Shown here in pieces: positions 46,755 to 52,261 of a DNA stretch of 64,000 nt; position 1 is the first letter of the stretch; the number at the start of each line of letters is the position of its first letter. This DNA is from Nocardioidaceae bacterium (GTDB lineage: Bacteria; Actinomycetota; Actinomycetes; Propionibacteriales; Nocardioidaceae). The position numbers and the translations under genes were made by a program. The notes below the pieces were generated by a model that did no database searches, was not told the DNA's origin, and was given only the letters and a program-made list of their open reading frames with translations. The stretch lies in the NCBI GenBank assembly GCA_030447805.1, contig JAUJOE010000005.1, forward strand, positions 154,231 to 218,230. The letters are read 5' to 3'.

Positions 46755-47657
46755 TCAGCGGCGGGCGGACACGCCGACAGAATCGGGCCGTTGCTGACGG
46801 GTAGGCGGGTAAGTGGGGCGGGCGCCGAAGGAGGCGCGGCGGGACGCCCGGCGCAGGGTCGCCAGCACCGCTGGCCCGAGTACGACGATGGCGACGGCGT
46901 TGGTGATGGCCCGACCGGTGTCCCACCCGAGCGTCGACGTGGTGACCGTGTAGACGACGAAGCGGTGCAGGTTGTCGAGCAGCGGGTCACCCGGCACGAA
47001 CGACAGGTCGGTGCCGCCGCCCAGCGCGAAGGGCCAGAACCACAGGTTCATCAAGAAGCCGTACAGGTACGCCGCGACGACGCCGTACGCCACGAGCATC
47101 GCGATCTCTGCCCGGCCGCTGATGCGCCGCGGCAACAGCCCCGCACCAAGGCCGATCCACGCCGCGGCAAGCATCTGGAACGGCAGCCACGGTCCTACCC
47201 CAGCCGTGAGCAAGCCGGAGGCGAACATCGATGTGCACCCCAGCACAAAGCCGAAGCCTGCGCCGAACACCCGCCCGGCGAGCACCAGGAGGAAGAACAC
47301 CAGCTCGACGCCGGCGATGCCGGCCCCCAACGGGCGTAGTGCGGCGTTGACGGCCGAGAGCACACCCAACATGGCCAGCGCCTTGGAGTCCATTCCGCCG
47401 TCCGCGAACGACGCGAGAACGATCGCCACGACGAACGGCAGCACCATGACGAACAGCAGCGGCGCGTCGCTGGTGTGGCCGACCGAGCTAGCCGGCGCCC
47501 GGACGAACAACGGCCAGCAGAACATGACGATCCCGGTGAGCGACGCCAGCAGCAGCGCCGTCGCCGTCCGTACGCCGACTGGTACCGCGGCCGTCGACGC
47601 CGACGCGGGAGCGGCGGCGCCCGGAGCGACCGCCACGCCGGAGGAGGGGTCAGCCAT
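46755..47657 (-). CDS. ECF transporter S component (putative cobalamin/corrinoid, CbrT-like)
   Basis: Multi-TM, last gene of operon with EcfA/EcfT and an upstream cobalamin riboswitch. Confidence 0.72.
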   Translation of the reverse strand: MADPSSGVAVAPGAAAPASASTAAVPVGVRTATALLLASLTGIVMFCWPLFVRAPASSVGHTSDAPLLFVMVLPFVVAIVLASFADGGMDSKALAMLGVLSAVNAALRPLGAGIAGVELVFFLLVLAGRVFGAGFGFVLGCTSMFASGLLTAGVGPWLPFQMLAAAWIGLGAGLLPRRISGRAEIAMLVAYGVVAAYLYGFLMNLWFWPFALGGGTDLSFVPGDPLLDNLHRFVVYTVTTSTLGWDTGRAITNAVAIVVLGPAVLATLRRASRRASFGARPTYPPTRQQRPDSVGVSARR

Positions 47658-49185
47658 GCGCCACCCCCGTTCCGTTAAGCGCTCCGGCGACCTGACCGAC
47701 GGTCAGCCAGGGCAACGGCGCCAGCACCTTGGCGACCTGGGGCGCGAAGACCGGCGACCCGGCCAGCGCCTCCTGCGTCGGGGCGGCCGTGACCACCTCA
47801 CCCTCGGCGAGTACCACCACGCGAGAGGCGGTGTGCGCGACGAACTCCACGTCGTGGGTGGCAACGACCACGGCCATCCCGGCAGCAGCCAGATCGGCCA
47901 CCTGCCCGGCAAGTCGGGCCTTGGCGGTGTAGTCGAGCCCGCGGGTTGGCTCGTCAAGCAGCAGCACGCGGGGTCGGCCGGACAGCTGCACGGCCAACGC
48001 GAGCGCCAGCCGCTGCCCCTCCGACAGGTCGCGGTGATGCACGCCGTCGTCAATGCCGGGCCCACCGACAAGCCTGTCGAGCAGGACGCGAGTCGCCCCG
48101 GGCACTGCCCGGGCTCCTCGGTCGGCTGCGGCGCACTCTGCTGCCACCGAGTCGCAGTACAACAGATCGGTCGCCTGCTGAGGCACCAAGGACACCAGTG
48201 ACGCAGCCTCCGGGCGGGACACGTTGGCCGGGTCACGGCCCGCTACCGAGACCGACCCTGCCCTACGCGGTCCCGCCCCTTGCAGCGCCCACAACAGCGA
48301 CGACTTGCCCGAGCCGTTGCGCCCCATCAGCGCGACCACCTCTCCTGGAGCCGCCGCGAAGTCCACGTCGCGCACGGCCACCGCGTCGCCGTAGGCCACC
48401 ACCACACCGCGGGCCAGCAGCCCGTCCCTGACGTCGCCGGGCACCACCGGCGCAACCCGCGCCGGCACGCCTGCCAGGGTGCTGCGCAAGGCACCCGCGG
48501 CCCGGCGGGCGTCGCGCACCGAGAGCGGCAGCGGGTCCCACCCCACCAGCCGCCCGAGCTCGACAACTGGCGGCGCCAGCGGCGCGTCGCGCAACAGTTC
48601 GGCCGGCTTCCCGTCGCGCACCCGCTGCTCGTGTACGACGACCAGCCGGTCGGCGTACTCCACCACCCGTTCGAGCCGGTGCTCGGCCGCCAGCACGGTG
48701 GCGCCGAGGTCGTGCACCAGTCGCAGTACGGCGCTCAACGCGTCCTCGGCAGCCGCCGGGTCAAGCGCCGACGTCGGTTCGTCGAGCACCAGGATGCGGG
48801 GTGAGCTGGTCAGGACCGCACCCAGCGCGACCCGCTGCTGCTCACCTCCCGACAGCGTGCGCAGCGCCCGCCGCCGCAGCCGGGCGATGCCCATCAGGTC
48901 GAGGACCTCCTCCACCCGCCGCCGCATCACCTGCGGCGGTACGGCGAGTTGTTCCATGCCGTAGGCCAGTTCCTCCTCGACGGTGTCGGTGACGAACCCC
49001 GCCAACGGGTCCTGTCCCACGACACCCACGGTGTCGGCGAACTCGCGGGGTGGGGAGTCGCGCGGATCGCGCCCCCCGGCGACCACCCGGCCCTCGACGT
49101 GGCCGCCAGTGAAGTGCGGGACGAGGCCGTTGACCGCCCGCAGCAGCGTCGACTTGCCCGAGCCGGTGTGGCCTCGATACCGAGC
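47650..49185 (-). CDS. ECF transporter ATPase with two ABC domains, 5' end damaged
   Basis: LSGGEQQRVALGAVLTSSPRILVLDEPTSALDP; second domain GRNGSGKSSLLWAL, LSEGQRLALALAVQLSGRPRVLLLDEPTRGLD; residual first Walker A GSGKSTLLRAVNGLVPHFTGGHVEG at about 49165. Confidence 0.85.
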   Translation of the reverse strand, partial: ARYRGHTGSGKSTLLRAVNGLVPHFTGGHVEGRVVAGGRDPRDSPPREFADTVGVVGQDPLAGFVTDTVEEELAYGMEQLAVPPQVMRRRVEEVLDLMGIARLRRRALRTLSGGEQQRVALGAVLTSSPRILVLDEPTSALDPAAAEDALSAVLRLVHDLGATVLAAEHRLERVVEYADRLVVVHEQRVRDGKPAELLRDAPLAPPVVELGRLVGWDPLPLSVRDARRAAGALRSTLAGVPARVAPVVPGDVRDGLLARGVVVAYGDAVAVRDVDFAAAPGEVVALMGRNGSGKSSLLWALQGAGPRRAGSVSVAGRDPANVSRPEAASLVSLVPQQATDLLYCDSVAAECAAADRGARAVPGATRVLLDRLVGGPGIDDGVHHRDLSEGQRLALALAVQLSGRPRVLLLDEPTRGLDYTAKARLAGQVADLAAAGMAVVVATHDVEFVAHTASRVVVLAEGEVVTAAPTQEALAGSPVFAPQVAKVLAPLPWLTVGQVAGALNGTGVAHG

Positions 49186-50300
49186 AAAGTGGCTTCACGT
49201 TGTCCCCACGTCGCCGGCAGCAGCGCGACGACGATCCCGACCAACGCCAGCCACGGCAGCTGCGGCCATGACAGTGGGGTGAGCGACGGGTAGAGGTCAA
49301 CCGGGTCGACCTGTGCGGTCGCGAAGACCGCTACTGCGGCCAGCAAACCCGCGGCGGCGGTGACGCATTCCGCCGCGCGCCACCGATCCGGTCGGTAGGA
49401 GGAGCGGTGGACGCTGCGGCCCGACAACACGAGGCCGGCCACGCCGACGGCGATCCCGGCGAGCAGCATCGGGGTGGCCAGGTAACGCGGGGCCGTTGCG
49501 TCCAGCAACGCATACACACCGATGCACAACCCGGCCAGCCCGGCGATCAGCAGGCCCGCTGTCAGCCGGCTCAGCACCACCGAGCGACTGCCGCGGCGGC
49601 CATACCCGCGGGAGTCCATCGACGACGCCAGCATCAGCGAGCGGTCCAGGGCGTCCTCGAGCACCGGGACGATGATCCTCCGGAGGGCGGCGACGCGGCC
49701 CTTCTCGGCCACTGGCCGCAGCCGGCGCGCACGCCGTACCCGGACGAAGCTCTCGGCGAGCTGAGGAAACACCGACAACGCGACGACGACCGCCGTGCTG
49801 ACCTCGTGCAGGGCGGCGGGCATCGAACGCAGCAGCCGACGAGGGTTCGCCAGCGCGTTCGCGGCCCCGAGGCAGATGAGCATCGTCGCGAGGCGCAAGC
49901 CGTCGTACACACCGGCCAGCACCGACTCTGCTGTCACGTCACCGAGCAGCGCGATGCCGGTGGCGGCACCGGGGAGGCTGACTTCCGGCAGCGGGACCAG
50001 CACGACGGTGCCCTGGTTGCCGGCGAACACGACCCGGAAGATCACCCGCACGATGACAATGGCGAGGCCCGCAGCGAGGTAGAGCGCGAAGGCGCGCGCC
50101 CACGGCGCGTCGGTGCGGCGGGCGAAGACGACCCAGGTGGCGACGGCGACAATTGTCGCGAGCAGCAAGGGGTTGGTGGTGCGGCTGGCCGCGACGGCGA
50201 GCCCGAGCGCCCACAGCCACCAGGCGAGCGGGTGCAGGGGGCGCGCCAGCAGGTGAGCCGGCCGCCGCGTCCGCGTCACGCCCGCCGTGACCGTCGCCAC
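49186..50300 (-). CDS. ECF transporter T component (CbiQ/EcfT-like), 3' end joined abnormally to the ATPase gene
   Basis: HPLAWWLWALGLAVAASRTTNPLLLA, ALSVFPQLAESFVRVRRARRLRP, DRSLMLASSMDSRGYGRRG (EcfT coupling motifs). Confidence 0.85.
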
Positions 50301-51982
50301 GCCGTCAGCCCGGCGCCGGCACCGAGCAAGCCGATCAGGCTGAGTCCGATCACCGTGGGCAGGACCGACCCGGTCGGCTCGGCTGCCGAGTCTGCGGGGG
50401 GAGCTGCCTCGCCCGGTACGTCGTCCGGAGGGGCGGTCGTGCTCGGCGTCGCCGATGGCGAGGGTGGCGGTGTGGCCGTCTGCTCCTGCCTGGTGGGATC
50501 GACGGCCGGCGGCCGAGCTTTGTCGTTCACCGCGAACGACCAGCCCTCGAAGCCGCCCGCGGTGACCCGACGACTACCCGCGCCGCTGGTGCTGTACTTC
50601 CACTTTCCACCGTTTTCTGCATTCCAGTAGCTCCAGTACGCCGACTGGGGCGGTGTGTCCTGGCAGTCCTCGTCCGCTGCTGACGGCTCCCCCTGAATGC
50701 GACAGACCAGCGCCCCCAGGCTGGACGTGACCAAGGAGTAGGAGAACCCAGCCCGCTCCAAAGCGTCAAGCCCGGTGGTCACCGGGGCGGCTGCGCAGCG
50801 CGTGACGACATCTCCGCCGAGACCCCGGAAGTCGACGACAACGGTCACCCCAGAGTCGGTCGGGCAGGATCCGGCAGTCCCCGCCCGGGGTGCTTGGGCG
50901 AGGGCATAGTAGGCCTGTGGTGTGGCGCGCCGGAACTGGTCGAGTTCGGCTGCCCGGATCCCCTTGGTCAACGCGCTGGTAAGGGCCGCACGGTTGTAGG
51001 CAATGACGCCGAGGTCGTCCCTCGCGGGGCCCCTGCCGGAGTTTGCCGTGGTGATCTGCATCCGCGCCACATAGTTCGCCGCCCGAAGACGTGCTTCGGT
51101 GCTTCCGGTTGCGGTGAGAGCGTTGGCCACCAACCCAGTGCTGTTGGTGTTCGGGCCCAGCTTCCCACCCCCGAAGGCGCCGCTCTTGTGCTGTTGTGAA
51201 ACCAGCCATCCCACGGTTTTGCTGACGGCTGCCGCGGGCAACGCGGCGCCATGCTCAGCAGCTGACTGGAGCGCCTGCAGAGCGAGCGCCGTGGCGTCGA
51301 CATCGGGGGCGCTGCCGCTCTGCTCGCACGTCTCGCCGGCTACCTCGTCGAGTCGGAAGTACCCGGCCTGGCACTGCTGTCTCAGCAGGTAGTCCACCAC
51401 CGGCTGCGGCACGCCGCCCGTCGGCGCCAGTGCGAGAACGCCGTACGACTGAGTCAGCACATTGCTGTAGTCCTTCTTCCCCGCGTCGCTGATCCGGCCT
51501 TGCTCCGGACCGGCGTCGGTTCCCTGAACGTGCTCGAGCACCTCAGCGCGGACGTTGTGACCACCGAAGTCCCGGACGTCGGCACCCAGCACGCTCGCGA
51601 ACAGCAGCGTCTTGGCCAGTGCGCCGGCGGCGGTGCCGCCGCCCGCGTAATCCGTGTAGAAGTGTCGACGCACCTGCTGTTCGAGGGCGGCCAGCCGAGC
51701 GGGCTCGGTGCCGGCTGCGGCCAGCATGAGGCCGGTGTCGATGGTGAGGCCCCAGTCGTCGAACTTGAACTGACTGTTGTAGATGCGGCCGTTGGTGAGC
51801 TGGCTTGCCTGCCAGCGGGCGGCGAGCGCGGCCCGCTGCTGGTAGTCAGGGGTTGCGGAGGCGACCGGGCTGGTGAGTGGTGCAGCTGGGATCGTGGTGA
51901 CGGCTGAGGCGGGCGCGGCCGCCGTAAGGGTGGTAACCGACACGGCCGCGACAGCGGCGAGCCGGCGAAGCCGGGTGGACAT
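50276..51982 (-). CDS. Secreted, C-terminally membrane-anchored alpha/alpha-toroid protein with DUF4430/transcobalamin-like C-terminal domain
   Basis: Signal peptide MSTRLRRLAAVAAVSVTTLTAAAPASA; prenyltransferase/squalene-oxidase-like repeats (DVDATALALQALQSA; NTNSTGLVANALTATG); TTGLDALERAGFSYSLVTSSLGALVCRIQGEPS..YWSYWNAENGGKWKYSTSGAGS; C-terminal TM + RRSRRA. Confidence 0.8.
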   Translation of the reverse strand: MSTRLRRLAAVAAVSVTTLTAAAPASAVTTIPAAPLTSPVASATPDYQQRAALAARWQASQLTNGRIYNSQFKFDDWGLTIDTGLMLAAAGTEPARLAALEQQVRRHFYTDYAGGGTAAGALAKTLLFASVLGADVRDFGGHNVRAEVLEHVQGTDAGPEQGRISDAGKKDYSNVLTQSYGVLALAPTGGVPQPVVDYLLRQQCQAGYFRLDEVAGETCEQSGSAPDVDATALALQALQSAAEHGAALPAAAVSKTVGWLVSQQHKSGAFGGGKLGPNTNSTGLVANALTATGSTEARLRAANYVARMQITTANSGRGPARDDLGVIAYNRAALTSALTKGIRAAELDQFRRATPQAYYALAQAPRAGTAGSCPTDSGVTVVVDFRGLGGDVVTRCAAAPVTTGLDALERAGFSYSLVTSSLGALVCRIQGEPSAADEDCQDTPPQSAYWSYWNAENGGKWKYSTSGAGSRRVTAGGFEGWSFAVNDKARPPAVDPTRQEQTATPPPSPSATPSTTAPPDDVPGEAAPPADSAAEPTGSVLPTVIGLSLIGLLGAGAGLTAWRRSRRA

Positions 51983-52079
51983 CGAAGTGCCTTTCGGTGA
52001 GCGGTCCCGGGAACGGATGCCCGACGACGGCACACGTGGACGATGTCCAGACTCCGACCCTGCAGACCTCGACAGATAT

Positions 52080-52190
52080 GGAGCCGCTCACTCCCCTGCA
52101 GGCATTCCGACTTCCGGTTGAGACCGGCCACGGCTGCGGGACAGTGCCGGATTTCGACCGGCTTCCCCTGTAGGCGAGCAGTATTGACTT
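52080..52190 (-). ncRNA. Cobalamin riboswitch (minus strand)
   Basis: Rev-comp reads ACAGGGGAAGCCGGTCGAAATCCGGCACTGTCCCGCAGCCGTGGCCGGTCTCAACCGGAAGTCGGAATGCCTGC, matching core blocks GGGAA..CCGG(N)CCGG..CTGTCCCGCAnC.GT...AGTCGGA..nCCTGC. Confidence 0.9.
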
Positions 52191-52261
52191 GTCGCCACCT
52201 TGGGCGGCGGCAGGGCGAATGTAGCAGACCCCGCCGAGGCGCCGAGCCGTAGAGTCGCCAG

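Follow-up and report, generated by a model that had tools for sequence, protein, structure and literature searches.

The usual view of energy-coupling factor (ECF) transporters is that the S component, their substrate-binding membrane subunit, captures the vitamin directly. Why, then, would an ECF operon preceded by a cobalamin riboswitch also encode a secreted protein that resembles the transcobalamin of animals? The locus that raises this question lies on the minus strand of a 64,000-nucleotide stretch from a Nocardioidaceae bacterium (assembly GCA_030447805.1, contig JAUJOE010000005.1, positions 154,231 to 218,230), referred to here as the window, and it comprises the riboswitch, the surface protein and genes for EcfT, a double ATPase (EcfA) and an S component. 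We interpret it, with a probability of about 0.78, as a B12 (corrinoid) uptake operon in which a surface capture protein feeds a dedicated ECF transporter. According to the proposed mechanism, the riboswitch would lower operon expression when cobalamin is plentiful, and the secreted protein, held by its C-terminal helix, would capture a corrinoid outside the membrane, between its toroid and its transcobalamin-type beta domain, in the manner of transcobalamin and intrinsic factor. The captured corrinoid would then be passed to the S component, with import driven by ATP.

The window belongs to a 2.5 Mb metagenome-assembled genome (MAG) that is 71% complete. The closest relative found, locus L002 of Nocardioidaceae bacterium YX2bin9, served as the reference for comparison of the window operon, and it apparently derives from a sister genome of the window's genus (G001), which is 97% complete.

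Fold of the surface protein

The original prediction described a secreted protein that combines an alpha/alpha toroid with a C-terminal domain and ends in a transmembrane segment, and the reading frame (Table 1) bears all of these; the C-terminal hydrophobic helix is followed by a terminal RRSRRA. Searches of PDB sequences with a profile of the C-terminal domain (C-domain) returned nothing convincing, therefore structure prediction was needed. The AlphaFold2 model of the whole protein, built from 32 sequences in an alignment (A3) that was checked for coverage before folding, reached a mean predicted local distance difference test score (pLDDT) of 90.3 and a predicted template modelling score of 0.81. 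Larger mixed alignments (A4 and A5) were left unused, as they misplaced toroid fragments. The best PDB match of the model in Foldseek is human transcobalamin (7qbg_C, E 1.8e-8), with 477 aligned columns that span both domains, so the resemblance to the two-domain transcobalamin/intrinsic factor plan that had been predicted from sequence is borne out. Entries of transcobalamin or intrinsic factor occupy 12 of the first 17 places, and the remainder are toroid-only cyclases.

To judge the C-domain free of the toroid, we also folded it alone from 56 sequences (pLDDT 88.6). The first 16 matches of this model are all transcobalamin or intrinsic factor; the top one is the beta domain of human transcobalamin in isolated, apo form (5no0, E 1e-3), and the same domain with cyanocobalamin (5np4) is among them. 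Matches 17 and 18 are a bacterial protein (3u7z) that was also found by the DUF4430 profile, and the match probability stays at 0.99-1.00 through match 18 and then falls to 0.12. The predicted chain, an alpha/alpha toroid followed by a transcobalamin-type beta domain, therefore has the architecture of transcobalamin and intrinsic factor.

With the toroid, the PDB profile search matched squalene-hopene cyclases. A terpene-cyclase reading (squalene-hopene type, class II) was considered and rejected, since the catalytic DXDD motif is degenerate: the DVDD of squalene-hopene cyclase aligns with DVDA in the window protein, and the final Asp is missing in all 15 toroids of the alignment (A2).

Riboswitch linkage, distribution and probable corrinoid dependence

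The Infernal search placed a cobalamin riboswitch (RF00174) on the minus strand with a score above the gathering cut-off, in agreement with what had been read from the letters. Its location was also predicted correctly, and its extent, given as 52080-52190, proved slightly longer, from 52217 to 52082. The start codon of the surface protein is about 100 bases downstream, and the riboswitch at the equivalent position of the sister locus scores 41.6 bits. A sigma-70 promoter scan found none, a terminator scan yielded nothing above chance, and the folding energy of the leader RNA is unremarkable (z -1.47); therefore, no expression platform is claimed.

The association recurs widely. The C-domain profile matches 54 of 297 sampled Actinomycetota genomes, and an RF00174 match is found upstream of the C-domain gene (up to 5 kb, same strand) in 48/55 genomes, at a median of 1269 bp; this count pools close and distant genome sets and accepts E-values up to 0.1, so that some matches are below the gathering score. 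EcfT and EcfA are both present at 34 of 40 distant, widely spread loci that were counted manually. In four genomes of the same family that lack a full C-domain, EcfT, EcfA and the S component accompany a riboswitch and a short, secreted protein like SCO2322.

Toroid and C-domain usually come from separate genes; in the genus of the window they are fused, and this fusion, toroid first, follows the order of the animal proteins. By crude hydropathy, C-terminal transmembrane-like segments occur in 46 of 68 C-domain open reading frames (ORFs) and in 15 of 47 toroid ORFs, and one toroid protein bears a sortase signal. The segment counts suggest that the transporter has a constant, anchored partner in the C-domain and a variable one in the toroid. 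Since the beta domain is constant and usually anchored, and the toroid is usually separate, looser and sometimes absent, the former is probably the docking or hand-over part and the latter the capture part. Extended to the phylum, this would mean that in Actinomycetota a dedicated ECF transporter has as its surface receptor for B12 a two-part, often gene-split transcobalamin, with the anchored beta domain as an obligatory hand-over subunit and the toroid as an exchangeable capture subunit, a generalization to which we give about even odds.

Several variants of the locus were observed. In L034 (7482-9764) and L038 (309-2768), both under cobalamin riboswitches, the C-domain has an Ig domain or leucine-rich repeats as its partner in place of a toroid. 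C-domain duplications or a C-domain placed before the toroid are found in L074 (4454-7279) and L023 (4843-7665), and several genomes have two or three paralogous surface genes per locus. In Ruania rhizosphaerae (L003, 5711-5784), an AdoCbl-II riboswitch replaces RF00174, and a PduO-like adenosyltransferase gene adjoins on the opposite strand. In three genomes of the same class, EcfT, EcfA and the S component apparently form one frame of about 1000 residues beside the C-domain protein (L083, 2108-5125; L084, 2117-5311; L085, 2537-5560), and RF00174 was not found in these three genomes. In addition, many true DUF4430 genes of other Actinomycetota are located about 3-4 kb downstream of a strong RF00174 on the same strand (L119-L148; for example in G141, G152, G108 and G130), and these loci are a parallel branch of the riboswitch-linked theme.

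The metabolic profile of the sister genome points in the same direction as the fold. Its single RF00174 site is the one of this operon, and genome profile searches detected neither a FecCD/BtuC-type permease above cut-off nor CbiC. It encodes two proteins with B12-binding domains, in our own reading a methylmalonyl-CoA-mutase-type B12 subunit (L117) and a lysine 5,6-aminomutase (L116), as well as a PduO-type adenosyltransferase. Having B12 enzymes and PduO with no CbiC or FecCD detected, this organism therefore appears to need an imported corrinoid, and the operon appears to be its best candidate route, BacA-type and other transporters lying outside the comparison. Structure, riboswitch linkage and the metabolic need of the sister genome, three independent computational lines, agree in supporting a surface-anchored corrinoid-capture protein coupled to an ECF transporter. 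The computations show the riboswitch, the conserved operon, the folds of the domains, the signals for secretion and anchoring and the dependence profile of the sister genome; we infer the binding of a corrinoid, its exact identity, its hand-over and the repression by B12.

Transporter genes and alternative explanations

Table 1. Features of the operon, with positions counted from the first letter of the window.
Feature	Position	Strand	Evidence
Cobalamin riboswitch aptamer (RF00174)	52082..52217	-	cmscan 38.2 bits (gathering 31.5), E 4.1e-6, full-length model match
Transcobalamin-like surface protein, 568 aa, ATG at 51982	50276..51982	-	Signal peptide, alpha/alpha toroid, transcobalamin-type beta domain, Pro/Ser/Thr linker, C-terminal transmembrane anchor
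Alpha/alpha-toroid domain, SCO2321-family-like	50888..51907	-	Alignment A2; squalene-hopene cyclase profile matches; weak PF01122; AlphaFold2 helices
C-terminal transcobalamin-beta-type domain (SCO2322-family-like, distant DUF4430 relative)	50453..50893	-	AlphaFold2 of the domain alone; Foldseek; hhalign
ecfT, transmembrane coupling protein (CbiQ family)	49200..50300	-	PF02361 41.1 bits (cut-off 25); L002 alignment; frame runs out of register to 48927
Damaged ecfT-ecfA junction	49130..49215	-	Against L002, 25 bp and about 140 bp absent, EcfA start lost
ecfA, double ATPase	47650..49086	-	TIGR04521/TIGR04520, PF00005; of the two nucleotide-binding domains, the second is intact and the first is cut short, lacking an in-frame Walker A
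S component, substrate-binding membrane subunit	46755..47657	-	PF07155 weak, 19.7 bits (cut-off 26.7)

A Group I ECF set, in which a single operon encodes EcfT, an S component and two ATPase domains, is intact in the sister locus and in most relatives. In the window, EcfT was correctly predicted, and the S component is a weak match in its own right; its assignment is upheld by its relatives, since PF12822 (ECF_trnsprt) matches 18 of 22 aligned S components (best 6.7e-12). The proposed double-domain EcfA is present as a two-ATPase gene, whose product matches residues 65-542 of its L002 counterpart at 92% identity, but it is not intact. The L002 EcfA begins VIEFEQFSFWYPGAAKAAVEAVDLHIPEGELALVVGHTGSGKST, and in the window the strands before Walker A are gone. 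Ahead of the Walker A motif HTGSGKST stands an in-frame TGA and no start codon, so that the listed EcfA frame opens only past the motif. The same lesion explains why the EcfT frame runs on out of register.

Several observations weigh against the proposed function. TM-scores of the whole-protein model against transcobalamin are low (0.3-0.4, with a root-mean-square deviation of about 20), which would be expected if the interdomain orientation of the model differs from that of transcobalamin. Pfam finds only sub-threshold toroid matches on the window protein; the toroid segment reaches 12.1 bits with PF01122 (cut-off 25), in a weak match at residues 201-273 of the segment, and PF01122 is above cut-off in 0/18 genomes scanned. 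In favour of the proposed function, in all four genomes giving any PF01122 match, the best one genome-wide is the toroid gene of the operon, each below cut-off. DUF4430 (PF14478) does not match the window copy and gives one weak match among 23 relatives (E 0.046). The description of the C-domain as DUF4430-like thus fails at the level of Pfam and stands through structure comparison and profile-profile alignment with 30 DUF4430 domains (hhalign, 87.4%, E 3.7e-6, 95 columns; unrelated control E 0.19). Because the curated cut-offs of PF01122 and DUF4430 are both missed, the claim is limited to likeness and distant kinship: the window protein is not a PF01122 member, and it probably acts in the manner of transcobalamin and is probably a distant relative of it. 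Furthermore, the toroid taken by itself resembles terpene cyclases no less than transcobalamin, so that the specificity for transcobalamin rests on the C-domain and on the combination of domains. Seven of the 55 C-domain genomes have no RF00174 nearby, three of them being contig-edge cases, and a 22-sequence S-component profile matches no PDB chain at E <= 1, CbrT included. Finally, the ecfA start is missing in the window, through mutation or misassembly.

The last point raises the concern that the operon of the window organism might be a decaying pseudogene cluster, which would leave the reading of the family unaffected. The loss of the EcfA start and N-terminal strands and the out-of-frame EcfT suggest decay, but the rest of the operon has open frames, with 92-98% identity to the sister operon, which is intact. 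In addition, the lesion adjoins an inverted repeat, present at this site in L002 (CCAAGATCCGAG...CTCGGATCTTTGG), a spot where assembly of a MAG may fail. Decay is a serious but unlikely explanation.

A second alternative retains the capture protein and the transporter and differs in the substrate alone, which might be a corrinoid precursor or analogue (cobinamide or other cobamides) rather than B12. ECF-CbrT is reported to transport cobinamide as well (PMC5997447), and cobalamin riboswitches are described in the title of PMC9600662 as sensing corrinoids broadly. Having no detected CbiC, the sister genome would depend on a corrinoid that is already largely complete (the search did not extend to cobU, cobS and cobT of the salvage pathway), and a substrate other than B12 seems rather improbable.

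It is less probable again that the ECF transporter imports B12 by itself and that the toroid and beta proteins bind something else, such as a cell-wall polymer, with a role limited to scaffolding the transporter or residing in the cell wall. S components bind vitamins at nanomolar affinity with no extracellular protein (CbrT, PMC5997447), the toroid is as similar to terpene cyclases and to the thioester-containing domains of complement as to transcobalamin, and the beta domain in L034 and L038 has partners other than a toroid. The beta domain, however, specifically resembles the B12-binding domains of transcobalamin and intrinsic factor, it stands under a B12 riboswitch almost everywhere, and the isolated beta domain of transcobalamin has been crystallised with cyanocobalamin (5np4). 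A cobalt or nickel ECF transporter (CbiMNQO) is highly improbable and was rejected on the type of S component and the missing CbiC: PF02361, which matches EcfT, is named CbiQ, 'cobalt transport', but the S component falls in the vitamin-type PF12822/PF07155 group and not with CbiM, neither CbiM nor CbiN was seen, and the sister genome, with no CbiC found, has no obvious use of cobalt in corrin synthesis.

Relation to known systems

Gram-negative bacteria that have BtuB/BtuCD use the periplasmic or surface proteins BtuF, BtuG and BtuH to capture B12 outside the cytoplasm before it is imported. The window operon shares the principle of capture before import and differs in using other proteins, and the sister genome has no BtuC-type permease above cut-off. 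The proposal that the surface protein replaces BtuF holds as a functional analogy only, since an ECF transporter works without BtuF and FecCD permeases are also present in many relatives (e.g., G019 and G211). If the proposed function is correct, the operon offers a plausible uptake route for B12-dependent actinobacteria with no BtuC-type permease.

B12 transport of the ECF type has been shown for ECF-CbrT (PMC5997447), and predicted CbrUVT B12 transporters have been used in genome reconstructions (PMC6593275). These systems resemble the window operon as B12-linked ECF transporters, but ECF-CbrT belongs to group II, with a shared module, the available text describes no transcobalamin-like surface protein, and the S component studied here has no sequence match to CbrT. 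Similarly, the ECF modules of acI actinobacteria have a cobalamin riboswitch ahead of the module in organisms with no B12 pathway, and the available portion of that work mentions no transcobalamin-like protein, unlike the window operon (PMC5301498). A conserved extracellular carrier ahead of an ECF transporter would, if real, be a new element of the ECF mechanism.

The idea is only in part new, since this kind of system has already been predicted. Burroughs et al. (2007, PMC1796856) defined the SLBB superfamily and proposed that bacterial surface proteins combining a toroid with a transcobalamin-type beta-grasp domain, encoded in CbiO/CbiQ operons, are B12 scavengers, and that the animal carriers are of bacterial (Gram-positive) origin. 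For this clade, the same work lists low-GC Gram-positives, planctomycetes and some euryarchaea, and Actinobacteria are not in that list. The window protein shares with these SLBB/DUF4430 scavengers a surface toroid and beta-grasp domain beside CbiO/CbiQ genes; the actinobacterial branch differs in falling below the DUF4430 cut-off, and riboswitches were not used in the available part of that work. The new elements are this divergent branch, which scores below the Pfam cut-offs, its link to riboswitches and the fact that it is mostly divided between two genes. A search of the open-licence literature found no experimental work on a bacterial transcobalamin-like protein.

The nearest named families are SCO2321 and SCO2322 (NF053823, NF040672), two separate families with no function in NCBIfam. 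They give weak matches at residues 171-330 (SCO2321, in the toroid) and 448-491 (SCO2322, in the C-domain), and the window protein fuses both and lies far below both cut-offs. The present interpretation suggests a candidate function for these families, now without one.

Compared with the animal carriers transcobalamin, intrinsic factor and haptocorrin (PF01122 and a transcobalamin beta domain), the window protein is likewise secreted, has a toroid and then a beta-grasp domain in the same order, and finds in them its best structural match. It differs in its 12-17% identity, its score below the PF01122 cut-off and its membrane anchor; the bacterial form is encoded beside an ECF transporter rather than working with an endocytic receptor, and in relatives it usually consists of two genes. 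The likeness suggests that the surface B12 catch of this phylum resembles the catch of animals in blood and gut. If so, the family would be an extant bacterial counterpart to the B12 carriers of animals and, as it shares both domains and their order with them and lies under B12 riboswitches, would provide direct material for testing the proposal of their bacterial origin.

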